Source: Streptomyces zinciresistens K42 (GTDB taxonomy: Bacteria; Actinomycetota; Actinomycetes; Streptomycetales; Streptomycetaceae). From it: a stretch of DNA of 64,000 bases. The position numbers and the translations under genes were made by a program. Under the pieces are notes generated by a model, which worked only from the letters and a program-made list of their open reading frames with translations, had not been told where the DNA came from and ran no database searches. This document shows, piece after piece, positions 5,399-64,000 of this stretch. The stretch lies in contig NZ_AGBF01000021.1 of NCBI RefSeq assembly GCF_000225525.1, positions 1 to 64,000 on the forward strand. The letters run 5' to 3'. Numbering within the stretch: the first letter of the stretch is position 1; each line of letters starts with the position of its first letter.

Positions 5399-6697
5399 GT
5401 GCTGCTGCGGTTCCGTGTGGCAAACGTACGGTCCCTGCGAGACGAGCAGGAGCTGTCCTTCGTCGCGCCTGGCGGCGAACAGGGCCGGCCGGCGCATCCG
5501 GTGGATCTCGCAGGCGGTGCATCCATTCCCGTCCTCCCGCTGATCGGCGTTTTCGGGGCCAACGCCTCGGGCAAGTCGAACGTGCTGACCGCGATGACCG
5601 ACATGCGCAACGCGGTCCTCGACTCCTACGCGCGCTGGGCCTCTCACGACGGCATCCCGCGCCAGGTGTTCGCCCTGAACCCCAGGAGCGAGAGCGAACC
5701 CTCCTTCTTCGAGGTCGACATCGCCATCGACTCGGTCCGCTGGACGTACGGCTTCGAGCTCAGTGCCACCCGCGTCGAGTCCGAATGGCTGCACAGCTAT
5801 CCGCTCGGCCGCCGCCAGGAATGGCTCGACCGCGACGCCTCCCGGCCGGACGTCTTCAAGTGGCCCGGCGGACGTGTCAGGGACCGGGCCCAGCTCGTCC
5901 GGCGCACGCGGCCGAACGCACTGCTGCTCTCCACGGCGGGCACGGACAACCACCCGCAGCTCTCCCCGCTCTTCCACTGGTTCCGCCGCAACTTCCGGAT
6001 GATCAGCCCTGAGGTCGAGCGGGACGAGCGCGCGCGGTACACCACGAAGGAACTGTCGGGTCCGAGGGCCACCAGGATCCAGGAGCTGTTGAGGGTCGCC
6101 GACCTCGGCATCACCGGAGCGACGGTCGTCCAGGACGGCCCGGGTCAGGACGCGGTGAAGCTGACGCACCGTTCGGCCGCCGGGGACGTGTCCTTCGACT
6201 GGCAGGAGGAGTCCTACGGCACCCGCTCCTGGTTCGCCCTCCTGGGCCCTCTGCTCCTGGCCCTCGACGAAGGCGCGGTACTGCTCGTCGACGAACTCGA
6301 CGCCAGCCTGCACCCCCGCTTCGCAGCCGAGGTCGTCCGGCTCTTCCACGACCCGTACGCGAACCCCAGGGGCGCCCAGCTGGTCTTCACGTCGCACGAC
6401 GCGACGGTGCTGACCACCCCGAGCGGTGAGCGACTCCTCGACCCGGCACAGGTGTGGCTGACGGAGAAGGGCAAGGACGGTGCGACCGCGCTGTACCCGC
6501 TCACCGATGCGGAGCCTGGCGAGGACGAGGACCTCACGCAGTCCTATCTCGCAGGGGCCTTCGGCGGCGTTCCGGCTCTTCTGGAGGGGCAGATCGCGCG
6601 GCGGCTGCTGGTCGCGCGCGAGGCCGACACGTACGACGAGACAGGCCAGCGAGCGGACGGGGCGGGCGAGCGAGCGGACGGGGCGGGGCGCGACTGA
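5399..6697 (+). CDS. AAA/ABC-type ATPase (AAA_15/AAA_21, OLD-like), partner of RloB
   Basis: A 432-residue cytosolic ATPase of the SMC/OLD-like family. It opens MLLRFRVANVRSLRDEQELS, the usual start of AAA_15 proteins that fold over their own DNA-binding or dimerisation insert. Walker A is GANASGKS at 53-60, Walker B is LLVDELDASLHP with D298/E299, and a switch histidine sits in TSHD (H333). The GTG start has GGAGAGGAGG just upstream. The stop overlaps the RloB start by one base, so the two are translationally coupled. ATPase plus Toprim-like effector pairs such as PARIS (AriA/AriB) are anti-phage systems in which the ATPase senses phage and releases the nuclease; that role here is inference. 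The last about 17 residues are encoded by a short GC-rich repeat. Confidence 0.85.
   Translation: MLLRFRVANVRSLRDEQELSFVAPGGEQGRPAHPVDLAGGASIPVLPLIGVFGANASGKSNVLTAMTDMRNAVLDSYARWASHDGIPRQVFALNPRSESEPSFFEVDIAIDSVRWTYGFELSATRVESEWLHSYPLGRRQEWLDRDASRPDVFKWPGGRVRDRAQLVRRTRPNALLLSTAGTDNHPQLSPLFHWFRRNFRMISPEVERDERARYTTKELSGPRATRIQELLRVADLGITGATVVQDGPGQDAVKLTHRSAAGDVSFDWQEESYGTRSWFALLGPLLLALDEGAVLLVDELDASLHPRFAAEVVRLFHDPYANPRGAQLVFTSHDATVLTTPSGERLLDPAQVWLTEKGKDGATALYPLTDAEPGEDEDLTQSYLAGAFGGVPALLEGQIARRLLVAREADTYDETGQRADGAGERADGAGRD
6649..6690 (+). repeat. Short tandem repeat encoding the ATPase C terminus
   Basis: The unit gcgagcggacggggcggg occurs twice in tandem within the last codons of the ATPase gene, giving QRADGAG-ERADGAG-RD. 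Being a multiple of three, it keeps the frame. It resembles replication-slippage variation rather than a conserved domain. Confidence 0.6.
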
Positions 6698-7377
6698 TGG
6701 GGCGGGCGCAAAAGGGCAGGGACTCGTGGGAGCGTCCGGCCCGGCGGGGTGGACAGCGCAAGCGCCAGGTCTTCGTTCTCACCGAGGGCAAGGTGACCGA
6801 GCCCTCGTATCTCGACATCCTCAAGGACCACGGCGTCCCCTTCGCAGACAAGGTCCCGGTGGAGATGCACATCGCCAACCGCAGGGCCGACAGCGGACGC
6901 AAACCGCTCGACCTCGTCGAGCAGGCGATCAGCCTGAAGCGCGAAGAGGACCGCAAGGCGAAGCGGGCCAAGCTGGAGGCGAAGTACCTGCCCCAGGTCT
7001 GGTGCCTCTTCGACCACGACAACTACACCTACGTCCGTGACGCACTGGAGCGGGCGAGGGCGGCGGACATCGGAGTCGCCTTCTCGCATCCGTGCTTCGA
7101 GGTGTGGCGCCTCGCGCACTACAAGCCGGTCAGCGGCTCGTTCGCCGGGGTGTGCGACGGGGCGGCCGAGCGGCTCCCGTTCCAGCGGGGTTCCCAGGAC
7201 GCCAAGACCCCCAAGGTCGTCCTGCCGCACCAGGTCCTGGGCCGCTACGGGACGGCCCGGACGAATGCCGAGCGGATGAACGAACAGCACCCGGCACACA
7301 AGGGCGAGTGGGACAAGGACCCTTACACGGACGTGCACGAGTTCGTGGAGAAGGCCCTGAACATCTCCACGTACTGA
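6697..7377 (+). CDS. rloB: RloB-family protein (Toprim-like putative nuclease)
   Basis: A 226-residue protein. The ATG at 6697 overlaps the stop of the ATPase gene. RloB family signatures are visible in order: a basic N terminus (RARRGGQRKRQ-like), the Toprim-style acidic motif TEGKVTEPSYLDIL (E30, E35), the acidic pair in VWCLFDHDNYT (D106, D108), and the conserved SHPCFEVWRLAHY (F134, E135, W137). RloB was first noted beside type I restriction loci and is placed with Toprim nucleases such as the AriB/OLD group. No restriction genes flank it here, so the ATPase-RloB pair stands alone. The likely role is an effector nuclease acting on DNA or RNA when unleashed by the ATPase (inference). Confidence 0.85.
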   Translation: MGRAQKGRDSWERPARRGGQRKRQVFVLTEGKVTEPSYLDILKDHGVPFADKVPVEMHIANRRADSGRKPLDLVEQAISLKREEDRKAKRAKLEAKYLPQVWCLFDHDNYTYVRDALERARAADIGVAFSHPCFEVWRLAHYKPVSGSFAGVCDGAAERLPFQRGSQDAKTPKVVLPHQVLGRYGTARTNAERMNEQHPAHKGEWDKDPYTDVHEFVEKALNISTY

Positions 7378-7701
7378 TCTCTCTCGGTCGTGGTCACGAG
7401 CTGGCCCCGGGATGGCCCCGGCCGGGCCGTAGGGCTCGAAGCGGCTACCCCGCGCCACCGATCTGCTCGCGGACCGCGAGGTCACCGCACCCCCACTCCG
7501 GTACTGCGTCGCGTGACTGACCGAATCCCCGCTGACGTGCACCGCATCGCGCGGTCGCCGGGCTCCTGCCCGTGGCGCACGCCGATGGCGAGGTTCCCGA
7601 GGAGGGCCGTGACGCCCGGGCCGCCTGTCCCGCCGGACGTGCGGACGTACGTGCCTCAGCAACGCCTCGTACGTCCGCACGCCCGGTTGCCGTCACGGCG
7701 T
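7378..7701. other. Convergent intergenic region with hairpin
   Basis: This stretch lies between the 3' ends of rloB and the nuclease gene. It holds the 14-bp inverted repeat listed separately. On the minus strand (7482-7630) a short open stretch reads LAIGVRHGQEPGDRAMRCTS, weakly like the end of DUF397 proteins. No intact gene is seen. Confidence 0.4.
7638..7681. terminator. Hairpin, probable bidirectional terminator
   Basis: cgtgcggacgtacg (7638-7651) and its exact complement cgtacgtccgcacg (7668-7681) form a 14-bp stem with a 16-nt loop. It lies between two convergent genes, 20 bp after the nuclease stop. No U-tract follows, which is usual for Streptomyces terminators. Confidence 0.6.
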
Positions 7702-8505
7702 CTACCAGATCGACTCCACCCACTCCGGGTGGTCGATGAACGGGTTGCGGTTGCCCTGGTAGGAGTCGTAGATGACCTGGTTGCGGCGCTTTTCGAAGGC
7801 GTCCGGCGGGTCCTCGTCGTTCCACTGCTTCAGGACCGACAGCCGTCCGTGGAAGGGGACGCTGCCGTTGATGGCGTCGTTGGCCTCCAGGTCGGGCCAG
7901 CTGTCGTCGCCCTCGTAGCGGACGGCCATGTAGAGGATCATGCGGGCCACGTCGCCCTTGACGGCGTCGCGCGGCTCGAAGGAGTCGGAGTCGGTCAGGC
8001 TGCCGCCCGAGTTGGTGAAGGCGCTGCCGCCGTTGTCGAAGTCCTTGTTCCCGCGCGCGCCGTTGACCTGGACGTCCTCGGCCCGCAGATGGTGCAGGTC
8101 GGTGCCGGGGCCCGTGGCGGTGCCGAAGTTGCCGTGGGACTGCGCCCACACGTGCTCGCGGTTCCAGTTGCCGGTGCTGCCGCCGTTGAGCGACTTGCTG
8201 CGCGAGATGCCGCTGTACAGCAGGATCACGTTGCCGCTGTTGTTCGGGTCCTGGTCGGTGACCTTCAGGGCGTTCCAGACGGCGGAGTAGGAGATCGTGC
8301 GCTGCGCGCTGATGATCTCGTGCAGCGAACTCTTCAGCGTGGCGCCCGTCTTGCCCATCGCGTCGGCGTAGTACGTGGTGTCGTACGGCGTGGTCGTCGC
8401 GGCGGCGGGGGTGGCGGTGAGGGCGGGGGTGGTGAGGCCGGCCAGGAGGGCGGCGGTCGCCAGTGCCACTGTCCTCCAGCGGCGGTGGCGTATGGGTGTC
8501 GCCAT
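7702..8505 (-). CDS. Secreted endonuclease I family nuclease
   Basis: A 267-residue protein of the endonuclease I family (beta-beta-alpha metal fold, non-specific DNA/RNA cleavage). The signal peptide spans about residues 1-36 (RRWRTVALATAALLAGLTTP then ATPAAA). The active-site motif is NREHVWAQSHG at 115-125, followed by TDLHHLRAEDVQVNGARGN. Extracellular location suggests nutrient scavenging or degradation of DNA released during mycelial lysis (inference). The ATG at 8505 is chosen because it puts RRWR directly before the hydrophobic signal core; in-frame starts further upstream give a long non-signal extension. No cysteine-rich or repeat extension is attached, so it is a minimal single-domain enzyme. 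Confidence 0.85.
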   Translation of the reverse strand: MATPIRHRRWRTVALATAALLAGLTTPALTATPAAATTTPYDTTYYADAMGKTGATLKSSLHEIISAQRTISYSAVWNALKVTDQDPNNSGNVILLYSGISRSKSLNGGSTGNWNREHVWAQSHGNFGTATGPGTDLHHLRAEDVQVNGARGNKDFDNGGSAFTNSGGSLTDSDSFEPRDAVKGDVARMILYMAVRYEGDDSWPDLEANDAINGSVPFHGRLSVLKQWNDEDPPDAFEKRRNQVIYDSYQGNRNPFIDHPEWVESIW

Positions 8506-9234
8506 GTGGGGTTCCCATCTACGCGGGTTGAATGAAGGCGGCACTCGGGAGAGTGACATGGACATGGAGCCCTGTCGAGGGCCTGCGCGTGTCCATCGGG
8601 TGACGGGAGACGTCAAAGAGGGTCAGGGGCGGGCGAGTCGGATGGGCGAGCCGGAACAGGGGCGCCCCCCGCCCCCGGCCCCGCGGATAACCACCGGCCC
8701 CCGCCTCCCGCCCCGCGGCAGACCACCGCCCCCGAGCGGCGGCGCTCGCTGCCACGGGTGGGCCGGATGACATCCAGCGGGGCGTGAGCTGGGTGGCGTC
8801 GTTCAGACCTGCCGCGTCCCTCGGTGTGCCGACTTCGCCCGGCCACCTCTCCCGCTGTCGACCTGCGCCGGGCCGCGGGTCTGCCCGACGCCGTCGCCCA
8901 CCGGTTCGCGGGAGCGCGGGCAGCCGCTCCGCACGTCACGTTGTTCGCGAGCCTCTGCACGGCACCCGGCCGAGTCGACGCTCAGGTCCCCCGTGATCGA
9001 GCCCCCCGTGATCGGACCTCTGCCTCGGGTCGGGCAGGGACCGGAGCCGGGCGGGGATCCGCTGCCAGGCGCCGTCCTGCTGCCGTCGGCGGAACAGTTC
9101 GCGGACCCGGTTCCACGGACCGTACTCGACCGGGGTTCGTGAGACGGGCCGCCGGAAGCACCCGCCGGGGCCGGTGGCTCCCCTCACGCCGGCCCGGAGT
9201 CGCTCGGGTCTCCGCGCGTTCGTCCGCGGGTCGT
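8506..9234. other. 729-bp gap with promoter of the nuclease gene and transposase remnant
   Basis: Between the start of the nuclease gene and the end of the ABC permease gene there is no intact reading frame with normal codon bias. The right part is the decayed transposase fragment. The left part (8506-8800) should contain the nuclease promoter; no clear operator is seen. Confidence 0.5.
8803..9140 (-). pseudogene. Remnant of an IS5-family transposase
   Basis: On the minus strand the segment around 9140-9030 reads PVEYGPWNRVRELFRRRQQD then GAWQRI, the YGPW...FRRWQRDGTW region of IS5-family (IS112-like) transposases. The next conserved block, normally LITWDVSVDST, appears as ITGDLSVDSAGCRAEAREQR but in a different frame, so at least one frameshift separates them. 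The shift coincides with a partial duplication of gatcacgggg near 8985-9015. Reading continues in the second frame to a stop at 8803-8805. The N-terminal third, the later catalytic residues and terminal inverted repeats were not found, so this is a dead fragment. Confidence 0.6.
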
Positions 9235-10548
9235 TCACGCCGAGGCCAGCGCCTCTGTCGGGGGGAGCCTGGCCGCACGGACCGAGGGGTAGACCCCGGC
9301 CACCATGCCGACCGCTACGGCACCGAGGCAGCCGGCTGCGACCGAGGTCAGGGGGATGACGGACGGCCAGCCCTGAGAGGTCGCGTAGCCGACGGCGGCG
9401 AGTACGCCGAGCGCTGTTCCGGCGAGGGCGCCGAGCAGGGAAAGCGCCACCGACTCGGTGAAGAACTGGACCCGTATCTGGCCCCGGGTCGCACCCAGCG
9501 CGCGGCGGAGCCCGATCTCGCTGCGGCGCTCCAGAACCGAGATGACCATGGTGTTGGCCACGCCTATCCCGCCGACCAGCAGGGCGACACCGGCCAGCCC
9601 GAGGAAGAGCGAGGAGAAGGAGTTCTGCGTTGCCCGCTTGGCGGCCAGGGCGTCGGACGGGCGGCTGACCTGAACCTGCCCCGGCCGCTCCGGGAACACG
9701 GTGGCGGGCAGTACATTCCGTACGTCTTCCAGGTATTCCTCCCCGGCCTTGATGTAGATCACCGTGGGGTTCCCTTTGAACCGCAGCGTGTTCTTGGCGG
9801 CGGTCCATCCCGTCAGTACGGCGACGTCGAGTTCCTCGGCCAGGGGCACGGAGCGGAGGATGCCGACGACGGTGAACCACGATCTGCCGATCCGTATCTC
9901 CGGAGCCGGCTCATCCGCGGGGATCTCCCCGATACCGAGACGGCTGGCCGCCTGGTAACCCAGGACCGCGGTGGGAAACCGTTCATCGGCTTCGCTGAAG
10001 AACCTTCCCGACAGGACCGTGCCCCCCACGACATCCAGTAGATTCCGCCGGGCCGCCAGAACGCTCAGTCCCGCGCTGGAGAAGTCCTCCCCCGAGGTGA
10101 GATCGGAACGCTGCACCTCCGTATTGGTGTTGGCCACCGCGCTCACTCCGGTGACCGGCCCGATACGGCGTGCCATGTCGACCGATCCCTCGGGCAGGGG
10201 GACCGGCTTGGACTGCCCGGCGACCGGCTGTACCCGCAGCATGTTGGAGCCCAACGCCGATATCTCCTCGATCAGCGCCCGGTGGCTGGAGGCCGGGATC
10301 GCCGTCACTATCACCATGGTGGCGACACCGATGGAGATGCCGAGCGCCGACAGCATGGCGCGCATCTTGCGGGTCCGCAGGCCGAGCATGCCCAGGCTCA
10401 GCAGATCCGGAAAGGCCAGCCGGACGGGCTTGACGCTGCTCGTAGCGGACCTGCGCGAGTGCGGGGACGGGGCACTTGAGTGCCGGGTGGAGAACGGTTC
10501 GGAGCGGCGGCGCTTGGAGCGGGCGGGTTTGGAGTGGGCGGCTGTCAT
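9235..10548 (-). CDS. ABC transporter permease, MacB/FtsX family
   Basis: A 437-residue permease with MacB/FtsX architecture: a basic, Ser-rich cytoplasmic leader, one membrane helix near residues 60-85 ([20 protein letters not shown]), a large extracellular MacB periplasmic-core-like domain (about 90-300), then three C-terminal helices including [20 protein letters not shown] and the conserved [16 protein letters not shown] loop. These permeases work with a dedicated ATPase as mechanotransmitters or exporters of peptides, lipids or antibiotics across the envelope. The start overlaps the upstream ATPase stop (ATGA). It is the last gene of the lipoprotein-adaptor-ATPase-permease operon on the minus strand. 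Confidence 0.88.
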
Positions 10549-58280: not shown

Positions 58281-58691
58281 TCACCCGAAGTCCCACGTCA
58301 CCACCGCGCACGAGCCGTCGTCCTCGCCGCCCGCGCCGCGGTAGGTGGCGAGGGCGGCCTCGTTGCCCGACTCGACCAGCACCCACATGCCGTAGCACCC
58401 CAGCTCGCGGCCCAGCGCGTCGAGCCGGCGCACCAGCGCCCGCCCGACGCCCCGGCGCCGGTAGGGCGCGGCCACCCCCAGCTCGTACAGGAACATCTCG
58501 GCGCCCTTGTCGGGGTGCACGGTCTCCACCCCGCTGACGAAGCCCACCGGTTCGCCGTCCAGGTAGGCCACCAGCAGATGGTGGCCGGCGGTCCCGAGGA
58601 AGCGCTCGGCCCACTCGGTGCGCACCGGGTGGTCGAGCAGGTGTTCCACGGCGGCGACTTCGGGGAGGCTGCCGGCCCGGCGGATGTCCAT
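58281..58691 (-). CDS. GNAT acetyltransferase, AAC(3)-I-like
   Basis: A 136-residue [64 protein letters not shown], then ALATYRGAGGEDDGSCAVVT and WDFG. The order ExFLYELxVxxxxRRxGxxxAL and the acidic GEDDG before the final strand resemble aminoglycoside 3-N-acetyltransferase I. Actual substrate unknown; aminoglycoside modification is possible but unproved. The ATG at 58691 is chosen for normal family length; upstream in-frame codons run into the promoter of the next gene. Confidence 0.75.
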   Translation of the reverse strand: MDIRRAGSLPEVAAVEHLLDHPVRTEWAERFLGTAGHHLLVAYLDGEPVGFVSGVETVHPDKGAEMFLYELGVAAPYRRRGVGRALVRRLDALGRELGCYGMWVLVESGNEAALATYRGAGGEDDGSCAVVTWDFG

Positions 58692-58807
58692 GTGCCTTCG
58701 TACCACGGCTGGAGTACTCGGGAGCCCGGCCGTACGCCCCTGGGAGGGGCCGGTGTTCGACCTGCGGTCGACATCTTGCTGACAGGTTCGCCACGTACCG
58801 TTGCACC

Positions 58808-61465
58808 ATGGATCTTCGACTGCCCGGACTGAGCGCACTGCGCGGTCTGCGGCGGCCCCGGCGGCTGGTCGCCGCCGCGGCCGCCGTCGTCGTGCTGGCG
58901 GGTGCCGGGACATGGACGGCCGTCGCCTCGGACGAGGCCCCGGCGGTACGGCGCGCCGACCAGGTCATGGACATGGGGGCCGGGGTCCGCGTCGACACCT
59001 CGTACTTCACCGCGGGCGCCGGCGGCCGCCGGCCCGCCGTGCTGCTCGGCCACGGCTTCGGCGGCAGCAAGGACGACATGCGGCAGCAGGCCGAGGACCT
59101 GGCCCGCGCCGGGTACGCCGTGCTGACCTGGTCGGCCCGCGGCTTCGGCAGGTCGACCGGCAAGGTGGGCCTGAACGACCCCCGGGGCGAGGTCGCCGAC
59201 GTCTCCCGGCTGCTGGACTGGCTGGCCGGGCAGCCCCAGGTCGAGCTCGACGGCCGCGGCGACCCGCGCGTCGGCATGGCCGGCGGTTCCTACGGCGGCG
59301 CGATCGCCCTGCTGGCCGCCGGGTACGACGACCGCGTGGACGCCATCGCGCCCGCGATCACCTACTGGAACCTCGCGGACGCCCTCTTCCCGAACGGCGT
59401 GTTCAAGAAGCTCTGGGCGGGCATCTTCGTCAACTCGGCGGGCGGCTGCGACAAGTTCGAGAAGACGGTCTGCGCGATGTACGACCGGGTCGCCGAGTCC
59501 GGCGTCCCGGACGCCGCGGCCCGCGCCATGCTGGAGAAGCGCTCGCCCTCCGCCGTGGGCGACCGCATCAAGGTCCCCACCCTGCTCTTCCAGGGCCAGA
59601 CCGACTCCCTCTTCCCGCTCGGCGAGGCCGACCGGGCCGCGAAGGCCGTCCGCGCCAACGGCGCCCCCGTCGACGTCGACTGGATCGCCGGCGGCCACGA
59701 CGGCGGCGACATGGAGACCGGCCGCGTCCAGGCCCGCGTCACCTCCTGGTTCGACCGCTACCTCAAGGGCGACAAGGGCGTCGACACCGGCCCCGCCTTC
59801 CGCGTCACCCGCACCGGGGGCATCGACTCCACCGACGGCCGGGCCCAGCTGCGCGGCGCGGGCGCCGACTCCTACCCCGGTCTGGAGGGCGGCCCGAAGC
59901 GGATCGCGCTGCGCGGCGGCGAGCAGAGCTTCGCCAACCCGGCCGGCGCCAGCCCGCCCGCCGTCTCCGCCCTGCCCGGCTTCGGCGGCGCCGGCGGCCT
60001 CGCCCAGCTGTCCTCGCTCGGCGTCGGGGTGTCGCTGGACTTCCCCGGCCAGTTCGCCCGCTTCGAGTCCGCGCCGGTCGGCCGCGAACTGCGCGTCACC
60101 GGCTCGCCGAAGGCCACCGTGCGCGTGCGGTCGAGCTCCGGCGAAGCGGTCCTCTTCGCGAAGGTCTACGACGTCGGCCCCGACGGCCGCCAGCAGGTGC
60201 TGCCGTCCCAGCTGGTCACCCCGCTGCGGGTGACGGACGTGCGGGAGGGCAGGGACGTCACGATCACGCTCCCCGCCATCGACCGCGACATCGAGAAGGG
60301 CCACCGGCTGCGCCTGGTGCTCTCCTCCACCGACCTCGGCTACGCCTCCCCGGCCGCTCCGGCCACGTACACCGTGTCCCTGCGGGGCGACCTGACCGTC
60401 CCCACGGACCCCGCCGCCGGCTCCGCCGCCGCCCCGCTGCCGTCCTGGGTGTGGTGGCTGCCCGTCAGCGGCGCGGTCGTCGCGCTGGCCCTGCTGCTGA
60501 CCGCCCGCCGCCGCACCGCCGTCCCCGCCCCGGACCCGGACCTCGCCGAGGTCCCGCTGGAGATCACCGACCTCAGCAAGCGGTACGCGGGCTCCGCCGA
60601 CCGGTACGCGGTACGGGACCTGTCCTTCCGCGTCGAGAAGGGCCAGGTCCTCGGACTGCTCGGCCCGAACGGCGCGGGCAAGACGACGACCCTGCGCATG
60701 CTGATGGGCCTCATCAAGCCCGACGCCGGCGAGGTCCGCGTCTTCGGCCACGCCATCCGCCCCGGCGCCCCCGTCCTCTCCCGCGTCGGCGCCTTCGTCG
60801 AGGGCGCGGGCTTCCTGCCGCACCTGTCCGGCCGGGAGAACCTGGAGCTGTACTGGCGGGCCACCGGCCGCCCCGCGGCGGACGCCCACCTCGACGAGGC
60901 CCTGGAGATCGCCGGGCTCGGCGACGCGCTGGCCCGCGCCGTGCGCACCTACTCCCAGGGCATGCGCCAGCGCCTGGCCATCGCCCAGGCCATGCTCGGC
61001 CTGCCGGACCTGCTCATCCTCGACGAGCCGACCAACGGCCTCGACCCGCCGCAGATCCGCGAGATGCGCCAGGTGATGATCCGCTACGCGGCCGCCGGGC
61101 GCACCGTGATCGTCTCCAGCCATCTGCTGGCCGAGGTCGAGCAGTCCTGCACCCACCTCGTGGTGATGGACCGCGGCCGCCTCGTGCAGGCCGGGCCGGT
61201 CGCCGAGATCATCGGCTCCGGCGACACCCTGCTGGTCGGCACGGCCGCGGCCGTCGACGAGCCGGTCGCGGAGAAGGTCGCCGCGCTGCCGGGCGTGGTC
61301 TCCGCCGTCTCCGTCGACGGCGGCCTGCTGGTGCGGCTCGCCGCCGACGGCAGCGCGCAGCGGCTGATCGCCGAACTCGTCCGGCTGGAGGTGCCCGTCC
61401 AGTCGGTCGGCGCCCACCGCCGCCTCGAAGACGCCTTCCTCACCCTGATCGGAGGTTCCGCATGA
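58808..61465 (+). CDS. Extracellular S15-type alpha/beta hydrolase fused to an ABC ATPase
   Basis: An 885-residue fusion. Residues 20-42 are an N-terminal helix (RLVAAAAAVVVLAGAGTWTA). Residues about 50-370 form an alpha/beta hydrolase with S161 (GGSYGG), D266 (GQTDSLFP) and H297 (GGHDGG) as a likely triad. Residues about 400-535 are an X-Pro-dipeptidyl-peptidase C-terminal jelly roll. A second helix (547-567, WVWWLPVSGAVVALALLLTA) returns the chain to the cytoplasm. There a complete ABC domain follows, with Walker A GPNGAGKT (619-626), signature YSQGM (715-719) and Walker B D739/E740. An ABC-2 permease gene overlaps its stop. Hydrolysis outside and transport energy inside are thus in one polypeptide. 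Confidence 0.88.
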   Translation: MDLRLPGLSALRGLRRPRRLVAAAAAVVVLAGAGTWTAVASDEAPAVRRADQVMDMGAGVRVDTSYFTAGAGGRRPAVLLGHGFGGSKDDMRQQAEDLARAGYAVLTWSARGFGRSTGKVGLNDPRGEVADVSRLLDWLAGQPQVELDGRGDPRVGMAGGSYGGAIALLAAGYDDRVDAIAPAITYWNLADALFPNGVFKKLWAGIFVNSAGGCDKFEKTVCAMYDRVAESGVPDAAARAMLEKRSPSAVGDRIKVPTLLFQGQTDSLFPLGEADRAAKAVRANGAPVDVDWIAGGHDGGDMETGRVQARVTSWFDRYLKGDKGVDTGPAFRVTRTGGIDSTDGRAQLRGAGADSYPGLEGGPKRIALRGGEQSFANPAGASPPAVSALPGFGGAGGLAQLSSLGVGVSLDFPGQFARFESAPVGRELRVTGSPKATVRVRSSSGEAVLFAKVYDVGPDGRQQVLPSQLVTPLRVTDVREGRDVTITLPAIDRDIEKGHRLRLVLSSTDLGYASPAAPATYTVSLRGDLTVPTDPAAGSAAAPLPSWVWWLPVSGAVVALALLLTARRRTAVPAPDPDLAEVPLEITDLSKRYAGSADRYAVRDLSFRVEKGQVLGLLGPNGAGKTTTLRMLMGLIKPDAGEVRVFGHAIRPGAPVLSRVGAFVEGAGFLPHLSGRENLELYWRATGRPAADAHLDEALEIAGLGDALARAVRTYSQGMRQRLAIAQAMLGLPDLLILDEPTNGLDPPQIREMRQVMIRYAAAGRTVIVSSHLLAEVEQSCTHLVVMDRGRLVQAGPVAEIIGSGDTLLVGTAAAVDEPVAEKVAALPGVVSAVSVDGGLLVRLAADGSAQRLIAELVRLEVPVQSVGAHRRLEDAFLTLIGGSA

Positions 61466-62325
61466 GCACGCTCACCGAGCGCACCGAGGTGGCCTCCGGC
61501 TACCGCGCGGGCCGGACCCTGCCGCTGAGGGTGGAGCTGATCCGCCAGCTCAAGCGGCGCCGCACCCAGGTCATGTTCGCCATCCTCGCCGTGCTGCCGT
61601 TCGTGCTGGTCGTCGCGTTCGCGATCGGCGGCGAGCCGGACGACCGCGGCGACCGCATCACGCTGATGGACACCGCGACGGCCTCCGGCGCCAACTTCGC
61701 CGCCGTGAACCTGTTCGTGTCCGCGGGCTTCCTGCTGGTCATCCCGGTCGCGCTGTTCTGCGGCGACACGGTGGCCTCGGAGGCGAGCTGGTCCTCGCTG
61801 CGCTACCTCCTCGCGGCCCCCGTGCCCCGGGTCCGGCTGCTGTGGTCCAAGCTCGTGGTCGGGCTGGGCCTCAGCCTGGCCGCGATGGTGCTGCTGCCCG
61901 TGGTCGCCCTGGCCGTGGGCTCGGCCGCCTACGGCTGGGGCCCCCTGCAGATCCCCACCGGCGGCTCCCTGGACACGGCCACCGCGGCCCAGCGCCTGGT
62001 GGTGGTCGTGGCGTACGTCTTCGTGTCCCAACTGGTCACCGCGGGACTGGCGTTCTGGCTGTCGACCAAGACGGACGCCCCGCTGGGCGCGGTCGGCGGC
62101 GCGGTCGGCCTGACCATCGTCGGCAACGTCCTGGACGCGGTGACCGCCCTCGGCGACTGGCGCGACTTCCTGCCCGCGCACTGGCAGTTCGCGTGGGCGG
62201 ACGCCGTGCAGCCCACCCCGGAGTGGGCCGGCATGATCCAGGGCACGTCGATCTCCGTGACCTACGCCCTGGTGCTGTTCGCGCTGGCCTTCCGCGGTTT
62301 CGCCCGCAAGGACATCGTGTCGTAG
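61462..62325 (+). CDS. ABC-2 type permease, partner of the hydrolase-ATPase fusion
   Basis: A 287-residue membrane protein with six hydrophobic segments (MFAILAVLPFVLVVAFAIGG, FLLVIPVALFCGDTVASEA, KLVVGLGLSLAAMVLLPVVA, LVVVVAYVFVSQLVTAGLAF, AVGGAVGLTIVGNVLDAVTA, SISVTYALVLFALAFRGFAR). The cytosolic SEASWSSLRYLLAAPVPR stretch is the coupling region typical of ABC-2/NatB-like permeases. ATG overlaps the stop of the fusion gene. Substrate unknown; a peptide-related export or resistance function is likely. Confidence 0.88.
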   Translation: MSTLTERTEVASGYRAGRTLPLRVELIRQLKRRRTQVMFAILAVLPFVLVVAFAIGGEPDDRGDRITLMDTATASGANFAAVNLFVSAGFLLVIPVALFCGDTVASEASWSSLRYLLAAPVPRVRLLWSKLVVGLGLSLAAMVLLPVVALAVGSAAYGWGPLQIPTGGSLDTATAAQRLVVVVAYVFVSQLVTAGLAFWLSTKTDAPLGAVGGAVGLTIVGNVLDAVTALGDWRDFLPAHWQFAWADAVQPTPEWAGMIQGTSISVTYALVLFALAFRGFARKDIVS

Positions 62326-62472: not shown

Positions 62473-64000
62473 ATGCAGCGACAGCACACACCGAGGGCGA
62501 CGGGCACCAGGGGCGTACTGACCGCGCTCACCGCGGCGGGCGCACTGCTGCTCGCCGGCTGCGGGGGCGCCTCCGGCGACGGCTCCTCGGCCCGGCGCGC
62601 GGACCGCGACGGACTCCCCGCCGCCCCGGAGCGCGGCGCGGCGGGCGGGCAGAAGAACGGCGACGCGTCCGGCGCCCGGAAGTTCGCGCCCGCCCCCGCC
62701 CCCGACCGCCTCTCCACCTTCGCCCTGGACGTCGACACGGCCTCCTACGGCTACGCCCGCCGCACCCTGGCGGAGGGCCGGCTGCCCGATCCCGCGACGG
62801 TCCGCCCCGAGGAGTTCGTCAACAGCTTCCGCCAGGACTACGACCGCCCCGACGGCGACGGCTTCACGGTCACCGTCGAAGGCGCCCGCACCGGCCGCGG
62901 CACCTGGTCCCTGGTCCGCGTGGGGCTGGCCACCCGCCCCTCCGGGGACACCGGCGAACGGCCGCCCGCCGCCCTGACGTTCGTCATCGACATCTCCGGT
63001 TCCATGGGCGAACCGGGCCGCCTCGACCTCGCCAAGGACTCCCTCGGCGTGATGACGGACCGGCTGCGCGACGACGACTCCGTCGCCCTCGTCACCTTCA
63101 GCGGCGAGGCGGAGCGGGTCCTGCCGATGACCCGGCTCGGCGGCAACCGCGCCGAGGTCCGCGACGCGATCGAGACGCTGGAGCCCACCGACTCCACCGA
63201 TCTCGGCGCGGGCATCGAGACGGGCTACGCGACGGCCGCCGACGGACTGCGCGAGGGCGCCACGAACCGGGTCGTCCTCGTCTCGGACGCGCTGGCCAAC
63301 ACCGGGGACACCGACGCCGACACCATCCTGGAGCGCGTCGCCTCCGAACGCCGCGAGAACGGCATCACCCTGTTCGGCGTGGGCGTCGGCAGCGACTACG
63401 GCGACGCGCTGATGGAGCGGCTGGCCGACCGGGGCGACGGCAACACCGTGTACGTCTCGGGCGAGAAGGAGGCCCGCGACGTCTTCAGCCGCCAACTGCC
63501 CCGCAACGTCGACCTGACCGCCCGCGACGCCAAGGCCCAGGTCGCCTTCGACCCGGAGACCGTGCGCGAGTTCCGCCTCATCGGCTACGACAACAGGCGG
63601 GTGGCCGACGAGGACTTCCGCGACGACCGCGTCGACGGCGGCGAGGTCGGCCCCGGCCACACCGTCACCGCCCTGTACGCCGTGCGCACCGCCCCCGGCG
63701 CCGAGGGCCCCCTCGCCACCGCGCGCGTGCGCTGGCTCGACCCGTCCTCGCGCACCCCGCACGAGGCGTCGGGCCGGATCGCGACCGGCGCCCTGCGCGC
63801 GTCCGTGTGGGGCGCGAGCCCGCGGTTCCAGGTCGCCGCCACCGCCGCCTACTTCGCCGACGCGCTGCGGCGCGGCGAGGACCGCGGCGAGGACCGCGTC
63901 CGCGCACTGCCCGGCGCTCCCGGACTCGACCGACTCGCCGACCGGGCAAGGGAGTTGGCGGCGGTGACGGAGGACAAGGACGTGCGCGCGCTCGCCGACG
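62473..64000 (+). CDS. VWA-domain lipoprotein (YfbK-like), 3' end beyond the window
   Basis: At least 509 residues. The lipobox is LLLAGC with C30 after an Arg-containing signal sequence. The N-terminal vWF_A-like region (PAPDRLSTFALDVDTASYGY) is the family's conserved start, followed by a von Willebrand A domain with the MIDAS motif DISGS (D173) and the T/D ligands in PTDSTDLGAGIETGY and LVSDALANTGDTDADTI. A DUF3520-like C-terminal region begins near residue 400. The frame runs off the right edge. Such proteins are surface metal-dependent adhesion or chaperone-like factors. ATG start; RBS weak (ggggcacgg). Confidence 0.88.
   Translation, partial: MQRQHTPRATGTRGVLTALTAAGALLLAGCGGASGDGSSARRADRDGLPAAPERGAAGGQKNGDASGARKFAPAPAPDRLSTFALDVDTASYGYARRTLAEGRLPDPATVRPEEFVNSFRQDYDRPDGDGFTVTVEGARTGRGTWSLVRVGLATRPSGDTGERPPAALTFVIDISGSMGEPGRLDLAKDSLGVMTDRLRDDDSVALVTFSGEAERVLPMTRLGGNRAEVRDAIETLEPTDSTDLGAGIETGYATAADGLREGATNRVVLVSDALANTGDTDADTILERVASERRENGITLFGVGVGSDYGDALMERLADRGDGNTVYVSGEKEARDVFSRQLPRNVDLTARDAKAQVAFDPETVREFRLIGYDNRRVADEDFRDDRVDGGEVGPGHTVTALYAVRTAPGAEGPLATARVRWLDPSSRTPHEASGRIATGALRASVWGASPRFQVAATAAYFADALRRGEDRGEDRVRALPGAPGLDRLADRARELAAVTEDKDVRALAD

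Follow-up and report, generated by a model that had tools for sequence, protein, structure and literature searches.

A predicted extracytoplasmic S15/CocE-type hydrolase and an ABC ATPase in one polypeptide of Streptomyces zinciresistens K42, encoded with an ABC-2 permease

In Escherichia coli, the YbbAP-TesA system reported in 2025 is a type VII ATP-binding cassette (ABC) transporter that holds a periplasmic esterase, and the report proposes that the complex extracts hydrophobic compounds for hydrolysis (PMC12646458). The authors found little stimulation by ATP with soluble substrates and considered extraction still to be confirmed (PMC12646458). A looser precedent is the Myxococcus protein Q1D520 (TC 3.A.1.145.1), in which an ABC-2 exporter component and an M1 aminopeptidase are joined (PMC3924187). 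Here we describe a two-gene locus of Streptomyces zinciresistens K42 (assembly GCF_000225525.1; 8.22 Mb in 524 contigs) in which a hydrolase and an ABC ATPase share one polypeptide and the next gene encodes an ABC-2 permease. The locus lies in a 64,000-nucleotide stretch, referred to as the window (positions 1 to 64,000 of the forward strand of contig NZ_AGBF01000021.1). No description of the fusion was found in the open-access literature searched, which is weak evidence, with some of the queries aimed at neighboring topics, and the available part of a paper on the S. coelicolor glycoproteome does not mention it.

A single open reading frame (ORF) of 885 amino acids encodes, in order, an S15/CocE-type hydrolase, a jelly-roll domain, a transmembrane (TM) helix, and an ABC ATPase. 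The permease gene overlaps its end by ATGA. An earlier note, made from the sequence alone, had described this gene pair, and the coordinates of both genes were confirmed. The features discussed are as follows.

58796 to 58801, forward strand: TACCGT, a -10-like box 6 nucleotides upstream of the ATG
58808 to 61465, forward strand: fusion protein (signal or anchor helix, S15/CocE hydrolase, jelly-roll, TM helix, ABC ATPase)
58862 to 58927, forward strand: N-terminal helix, residues 19 to 40, after RRPRR and ending TAVA-SD; predicted signal peptide or signal anchor
58988 to 59797, forward strand: alpha/beta-hydrolase domain, residues about 61 to 330
59288 to 59290, forward strand: predicted nucleophile Ser161, in GGSYGG
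59447 to 59473, forward strand: Cys214 to Cys222, putative disulfide of the cap, adjacent to a site (after residue 212) where insertions vary in length
59603 to 59605, forward strand: Asp266 of the predicted triad
59696 to 59698, forward strand: His297 of the predicted triad
60056 to 60361, forward strand: PepX_C jelly-roll, residues 417 to 518
60449 to 60505, forward strand: predicted TM helix, residues 548 to 566, followed by RRR
60557 to 61213, forward strand: ABC ATPase, residues 584 to 802 (Pfam, NCBIfam, motifs, and PDB sequence matches)
61214 to 61462, forward strand: C-terminal ATPase tail, residues 803 to 885, more variable
61462 to 62325, forward strand: ABC-2 family permease, 287 amino acids

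The hydrolase-ATPase fusion is a genuine family and not a one-off. A scan of a contig library with the ectodomain half gave 408 relatives, of which the best 80 were kept (78 titled Streptomyces), and in all 80 loci the ATPase was in the same ORF as the hydrolase. Three additional loci that lacked the ATPase were other S15 genes of the source genome itself. The set of relatives used below consists of 132 distinct fused proteins, 97 from the best 80 loci or from same-genus genomes and 35 from elsewhere. The domain order that the earlier note had read from one sequence was the same across these relatives, and the recurrence of the same single ORF, there and in the 80 loci, rules out a frame error that fused two genes. 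The permease gene adjoins the fusion gene in 129 of the 132; the other three fusion genes stop 2 to 34 bases before the end of the sequence, which cuts off the position of the permease.

Separate expression of the ATPase from an internal start, which the earlier note had named as a threat to its single-chain interpretation, was rejected after a codon survey of residues 530 to 604. GTG548 is the sole ATG, GTG, or TTG codon in that interval, and it lies inside the TM helix without an upstream Shine-Dalgarno-like sequence. No ATG occurs between residues 302 and 631, and ATG631 is already past Walker A (the survey listed ATG codons back to residue 302 and GTG and TTG codons from residue 530). Therefore, the ATPase cannot easily be produced alone from this gene. 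Along with the intact triad and ATPase motifs described below, the gene structure, domain order, permease pairing, and lack of an internal start are established at the level of the sequence.

The fusion is near-core in Streptomyces. The protein was matched in 111 of 121 genomes of a genus sample at an E value of 1e-95 or better. Among these, G303 was matched over residues 380 to 884 only, and G407 and G408 are fragmented assemblies with the halves in separate ORFs, on different contigs in G408. A natural gene split in G407 was considered and not accepted, the frames being broken at several places in that fragmented assembly. In a class sample, 44 of 197 Actinomycetes genomes had a match (15 of 16 same-genus genomes and 29 of 181 others; 19 of 90 genera), and all 38 of the matches that were retrieved were single ORFs. 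With ORFs checked, a phylum sample of 296 genomes contained the fusion in at least 8 of 9 same-genus genomes, at least 2 of 17 others of the same class, and at least 10 of the 270 remaining genomes of the phylum. A plasmid collection yielded 17 matching records; among four that were inspected, two were fused, both actinobacterial, and two were stand-alone. Tsukamurella and Nonomuraea records of this collection carry the fusion, and an annotated Tsukamurella relative is labeled only "alpha/beta fold hydrolase." The whole two-gene unit is also found in G430 and G460, two genomes that each consist of one contig and measure only 1.34 and 1.35 Mb (fusion gene at positions 7377 to 9845 of L174 and 7130 to 9601 of L175, respectively); the surroundings of the locus there are about 49% guanine plus cytosine. 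Its retention in genomes of this size argues for a basic role of the unit.

Profile matches place the ectodomain with S15/CocE-type hydrolases. Peptidase_S15 (PF02129) matched residues 75 to 270 (71.2 bits; cut-off, 23), PepX_C (PF08530) matched residues 417 to 518 (53.4 bits; cut-off, 22.5), and the CocE/NonD model TIGR00976 of NCBIfam scored 105.2 bits against a cut-off of 66.3. The triad named in the earlier note, Ser161-Asp266-His297, was exact, and all three residues are kept in 132 of 132 relatives. In a sequence alignment they fall on S, D, and H of 8yzo, a lipase of solved structure. A model of the ectodomain (predicted local distance difference test [pLDDT] score, 77.3; predicted template modeling [pTM] score, 0.79; alignment holding 77 of the best 80 relatives) was by far nearest in fold to PaL (8yzn and 8yzo; Z 29.9, 441 residues, 4.1 Å), which we take to be the Pseudomonas alcaligenes lipase. 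Foldseek likewise ranked PaL first. Beyond PaL came 2,6-dihydroxy-pseudo-oxynicotine hydrolase (Z 25.5 across 254 residues), cocaine esterase CocE (Z about 24 across about 442 residues), and X-prolyl dipeptidyl peptidase 6nff (Z 23.3 across 429 residues). Because these Z scores are close, the modeled fold does not separate esterase from peptidase relatives, which are nearly tied after PaL. The likeness to PaL and CocE covers the whole ectodomain fold, whereas the solved chains lack an ATPase and the identity is 21 to 22%. In the model, the triad residues come after strands 111 to 116, 214 to 218, and 244 to 248 (model numbering). The fold and the alignment are the results that bear on the second refuting condition of the earlier note, a failure of the triad residues to come together in a model.

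Insertions of 13 to 92 residues follow residue 212, beside Cys214, in all 12 of the divergent relatives compared, and insertions of 5 to 35 residues follow residue 342 in 9 of them. In nine close pairs, the ratio of nonsynonymous to synonymous substitution rates was 0.32 to 0.43 for the ectodomain versus 0.04 to 0.16 for the ATPase. Purifying selection acts on both halves.

Comparison of N-termini supported the ATG at 58808 as the start codon. ATG was the start in 79 of 79 placed starts, nearly all followed by DLR, as placed by a script that favors ATG (1 of 80 loci gave no candidate). When 20 upstream regions were aligned, 19 had TACCGT directly preceding the start codon, which suggests leaderless mRNA and translation of the fusion gene. 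A scan with the sigma-70 consensus found no promoter match at the TACCGT box.

The earlier note had proposed two membrane helices, and hydropathy located them at residues 21 to 39 and 548 to 566; a third, weak peak at residues 824 to 842, in the ATPase tail, was not counted as a helix. The second helix held up, with hydropathy of at least 1.4 in every row of a 134-row table made up of the 132 relatives and the window protein entered twice. About 17 residues separate its end from the start of the ATPase. The first helix probably serves as a signal peptide or a signal anchor. In Streptomyces relatives it is mostly preceded by an RRPRR-like sequence and ends in TAVA-SD or near it. In other genera some N-termini, read by eye, end in motifs such as PAQA-ES or AHA-AN in the manner of cleavable signal peptides, and the second helix may therefore be the sole permanent membrane helix. 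One further relative (L177, positions 7457 to 9970) has a lipobox-like LGAC at its N-terminus, also read by eye, and its ectodomain may be lipid anchored.

Of the 132 relatives, 130 have exactly two Cys in the ectodomain and two have no Cys there; a single Cys never occurs. Such paired gain and loss fits a disulfide between Cys214 and Cys222 and, with it, a location of the ectodomain outside the cell. The two Cys-free ectodomains belong to the L129 and L130 fusion proteins, in which both Cys are replaced, by S/A and T/A. Together, the two-or-none Cys pattern and the signal-peptide-like N-termini strongly indicate an ectodomain outside the cell and an ATPase inside, which is the topology that had been predicted.

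The ATPase carries the complete set of motifs, as the earlier note had read: Walker A (GPNGAGKTT) begins at residue 619, the signature (YSQGM) at 715, Walker B (LILDEP) at 736, and SSH at 770. Residues K625, S716, D739, E740, and H772 are unchanged in all 132 relatives, and the Pfam ABC_tran match at residues 603 to 743 is above its cut-off. The best NCBIfam ATPase model was drrA (TIGR01188), below its cut-off (179.2 versus 312.45 bits), and the closest PDB chains by sequence were ABCA lipid transporters, followed by NosF. Mean identity to the 12 divergent relatives was 0.31 for residues 801 to 885 versus 0.64 for residues 581 to 800. The assignment of the partner as an ABC-2 permease was also borne out, with PF12730 (39.8 bits; cut-off, 27) and PF12679 (28.2 bits; cut-off, 27.2). 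Five hydropathy peaks are spread along the permease, and only ABC-2 families are among its Pfam matches. Its NCBIfam match to the lantibiotic protein MutG was weak, far below the cut-off. The gene pair resembles DrrAB-type ABC-2 exporters in its closest ATPase model and its separate ABC-2 permease, whereas its ATPase scores below the drrA cut-off and the fusion has an extra ectodomain. Peptidase-containing ABC transporters (PCAT), in which a cytoplasmic cysteine protease of the C39 family is attached to an exporter that has its own membrane domain, also place a hydrolase and an ABC ATPase in one chain; in contrast, no C39 peptidase domain was found in the fusion among Pfam matches at E values up to 0.01.

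The fusion is best read as a covalent counterpart of YbbAP-TesA. In both systems an ABC ATPase and a permease appear to work with an extracytoplasmic serine ester hydrolase (PMC12646458). The differences are that the hydrolase there is a separate GDSL chain, whereas here an S15/CocE hydrolase is inside the ATPase polypeptide, and that the permease there is of type VII (MacB-type) with a large outside domain, whereas here it is an ABC-2 permease in a different phylum. The earlier note had called the joining of outside cleavage to transport energy unusual. Linkage of an outside hydrolase to an ABC motor has this precedent; here a single chain contains both. Q1D520 differs in having a zinc aminopeptidase on a permease domain with 13 predicted helices (PMC3924187).

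We propose, at roughly even confidence, that the two genes encode a DrrAB-like ABC-2 machine with an extracytoplasmic ester hydrolase on every ATPase chain, and that this machine extracts or exports a hydrophobic ester and cleaves it. The permease, driven by ATP binding and hydrolysis inside the cell, would extract or export a hydrophobic compound that carries an ester or acyl group. A single helix leading straight into the ATPase would keep the S15/CocE-type ectodomain at the exit, where it would cleave the compound at the outer face. From these comparisons we infer an ester-type rather than a peptide substrate, its hydrophobic character, coupling of the two activities, and a 2:2 assembly.

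Several observations weigh against this proposal. The full-length AlphaFold model, from an alignment holding 61 of the best 80 relatives, was poor (pLDDT, 54.6; pTM, 0.37) and was not used, and the geometry between the halves is not given by it. Hydropathy indicated no large outside domain on the permease for docking of the hydrolase, unlike YbbP. The faster evolution of the ectodomain than of the ATPase could mean loose coupling, and stand-alone ATPase-permease relatives sit among the fused ATPases in a tree. As a guide to the substrate, a BLAST comparison of 12 non-Streptomyces regions gave no widely recurring neighbor other than ABC ATPase matches and antisense ORFs that overlap. Ten of the 121 same-genus genomes had no match, so the genus can do without the system.

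FtsEX and NosDFY work as mechanical switches, and the MacB-type permease is used by FtsEX and YbbAP. It is possible, at well below even confidence, that a switch of this kind operates here and that nothing is transported: ATP would drive the hydrolase through the ATPase-permease core, which, by way of the linking helix, would either open the enzyme or offer it lipids of the outer leaflet. This explanation, by analogy, would be consistent with the covalent joining of hydrolase and ATPase by one helix and the connection of about 17 residues, with NosF among the nearest bacterial ATPases in the PDB, and with the mechanotransmission proposed for YbbAP-TesA (PMC12646458). However, the permease here matches ABC-2 families rather than the MacB type. 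Furthermore, the small effect of ATP on YbbAP-TesA with soluble substrates does not favor it (PMC12646458).

A related and rather speculative idea is that the protein is a covalently coupled, ATP-gated cell-surface hydrolase, with the ATPase mainly working the outside enzyme via the linking helix and the permease rather than powering transport. Such a device would have evolved independently of YbbAP-TesA, out of another permease class and another hydrolase family, and would serve envelope housekeeping in most Streptomyces.

Processing of a peptide during export, which the earlier note had also entertained, seems unlikely. In that case an S15-type exopeptidase would trim the exported peptide, which could be a small lipopeptide, on its way out of the cell. 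The Pfam S15 and PepX_C matches and the weak similarity of the permease to MutG are compatible with this function, but the fold is closer to the PaL lipase than to X-Pro dipeptidyl peptidase, and no peptide-precursor gene was noticed, although short ORFs were not searched for.

It is similarly improbable that the fusion merely tethers a secreted esterase to an unrelated exporter, with independent activities. The hydrolase and the ATPase-permease pair each have stand-alone relatives, which would permit such an arrangement, whereas retention of the fusion inside and outside the class, within the same phylum, argues against it.

Three stand-alone ATPase-permease pairs (L133, positions 1005 to 2749; L134, 6304 to 8288; L135, 141 to 1906) have an ATPase about 50 to 52% identical to the fused ATPase, and no hydrolase match was found within the sequence retrieved for them. 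At another locus (L142, positions 5563 to 7383), one ORF has a hydrophobic N-terminal segment and encodes both an ABC ATPase and an ABC-2 permease but no hydrolase, a further rearrangement into one chain. In a quick tree of the hydrolase, the 33 fused rows formed one clade relative to 4 stand-alone rows; in the ATPase tree, the fused rows did not form one clade relative to 10 stand-alone rows (3 changes). Stand-alone pairs among the fused ATPases indicate that such a motor does not depend on an attached hydrolase for its existence. The hydrolase may have been lost from some lineages, or fusion may have happened more than once.

A sensor in which ligand binding by the hydrolase fold controls the ATPase, with catalysis incidental, could account for the variable insertions between the nucleophile and the Asp, beside the Cys pair, but as the main role, which the earlier note had suggested as a ligand-gated regulator, it is very doubtful because a pure sensor need not keep S, D, and H in 132 of 132 relatives.

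Neighboring genes were compared in the 69 Streptomyces loci with full flanks. A divergent GNAT acetyltransferase gene (58281 to 58691, reverse strand) lies beside the fusion gene and is present in only 4 of these loci. A VWA/YfbK-type gene (62473 to 63999, forward strand) begins 147 bases after the permease gene and is present in 55, and mmsA is near the fusion gene in 68. The mmsA and VWA genes were rejected as functional partners; the pattern looks like stable chromosome order rather than function.

The concept that an ABC motor can work for an ester hydrolase on the far side of the membrane is recent, and YbbAP-TesA achieves this with separate proteins, whereas the Streptomyces system has one chain. 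The system, which most of the Streptomyces genomes examined possess, may conceal a role in the envelope or in secondary metabolism. With hydrolase and ATPase in the same chain, point mutations in a single gene, in a genus that is convenient to work with, make coupling testable.

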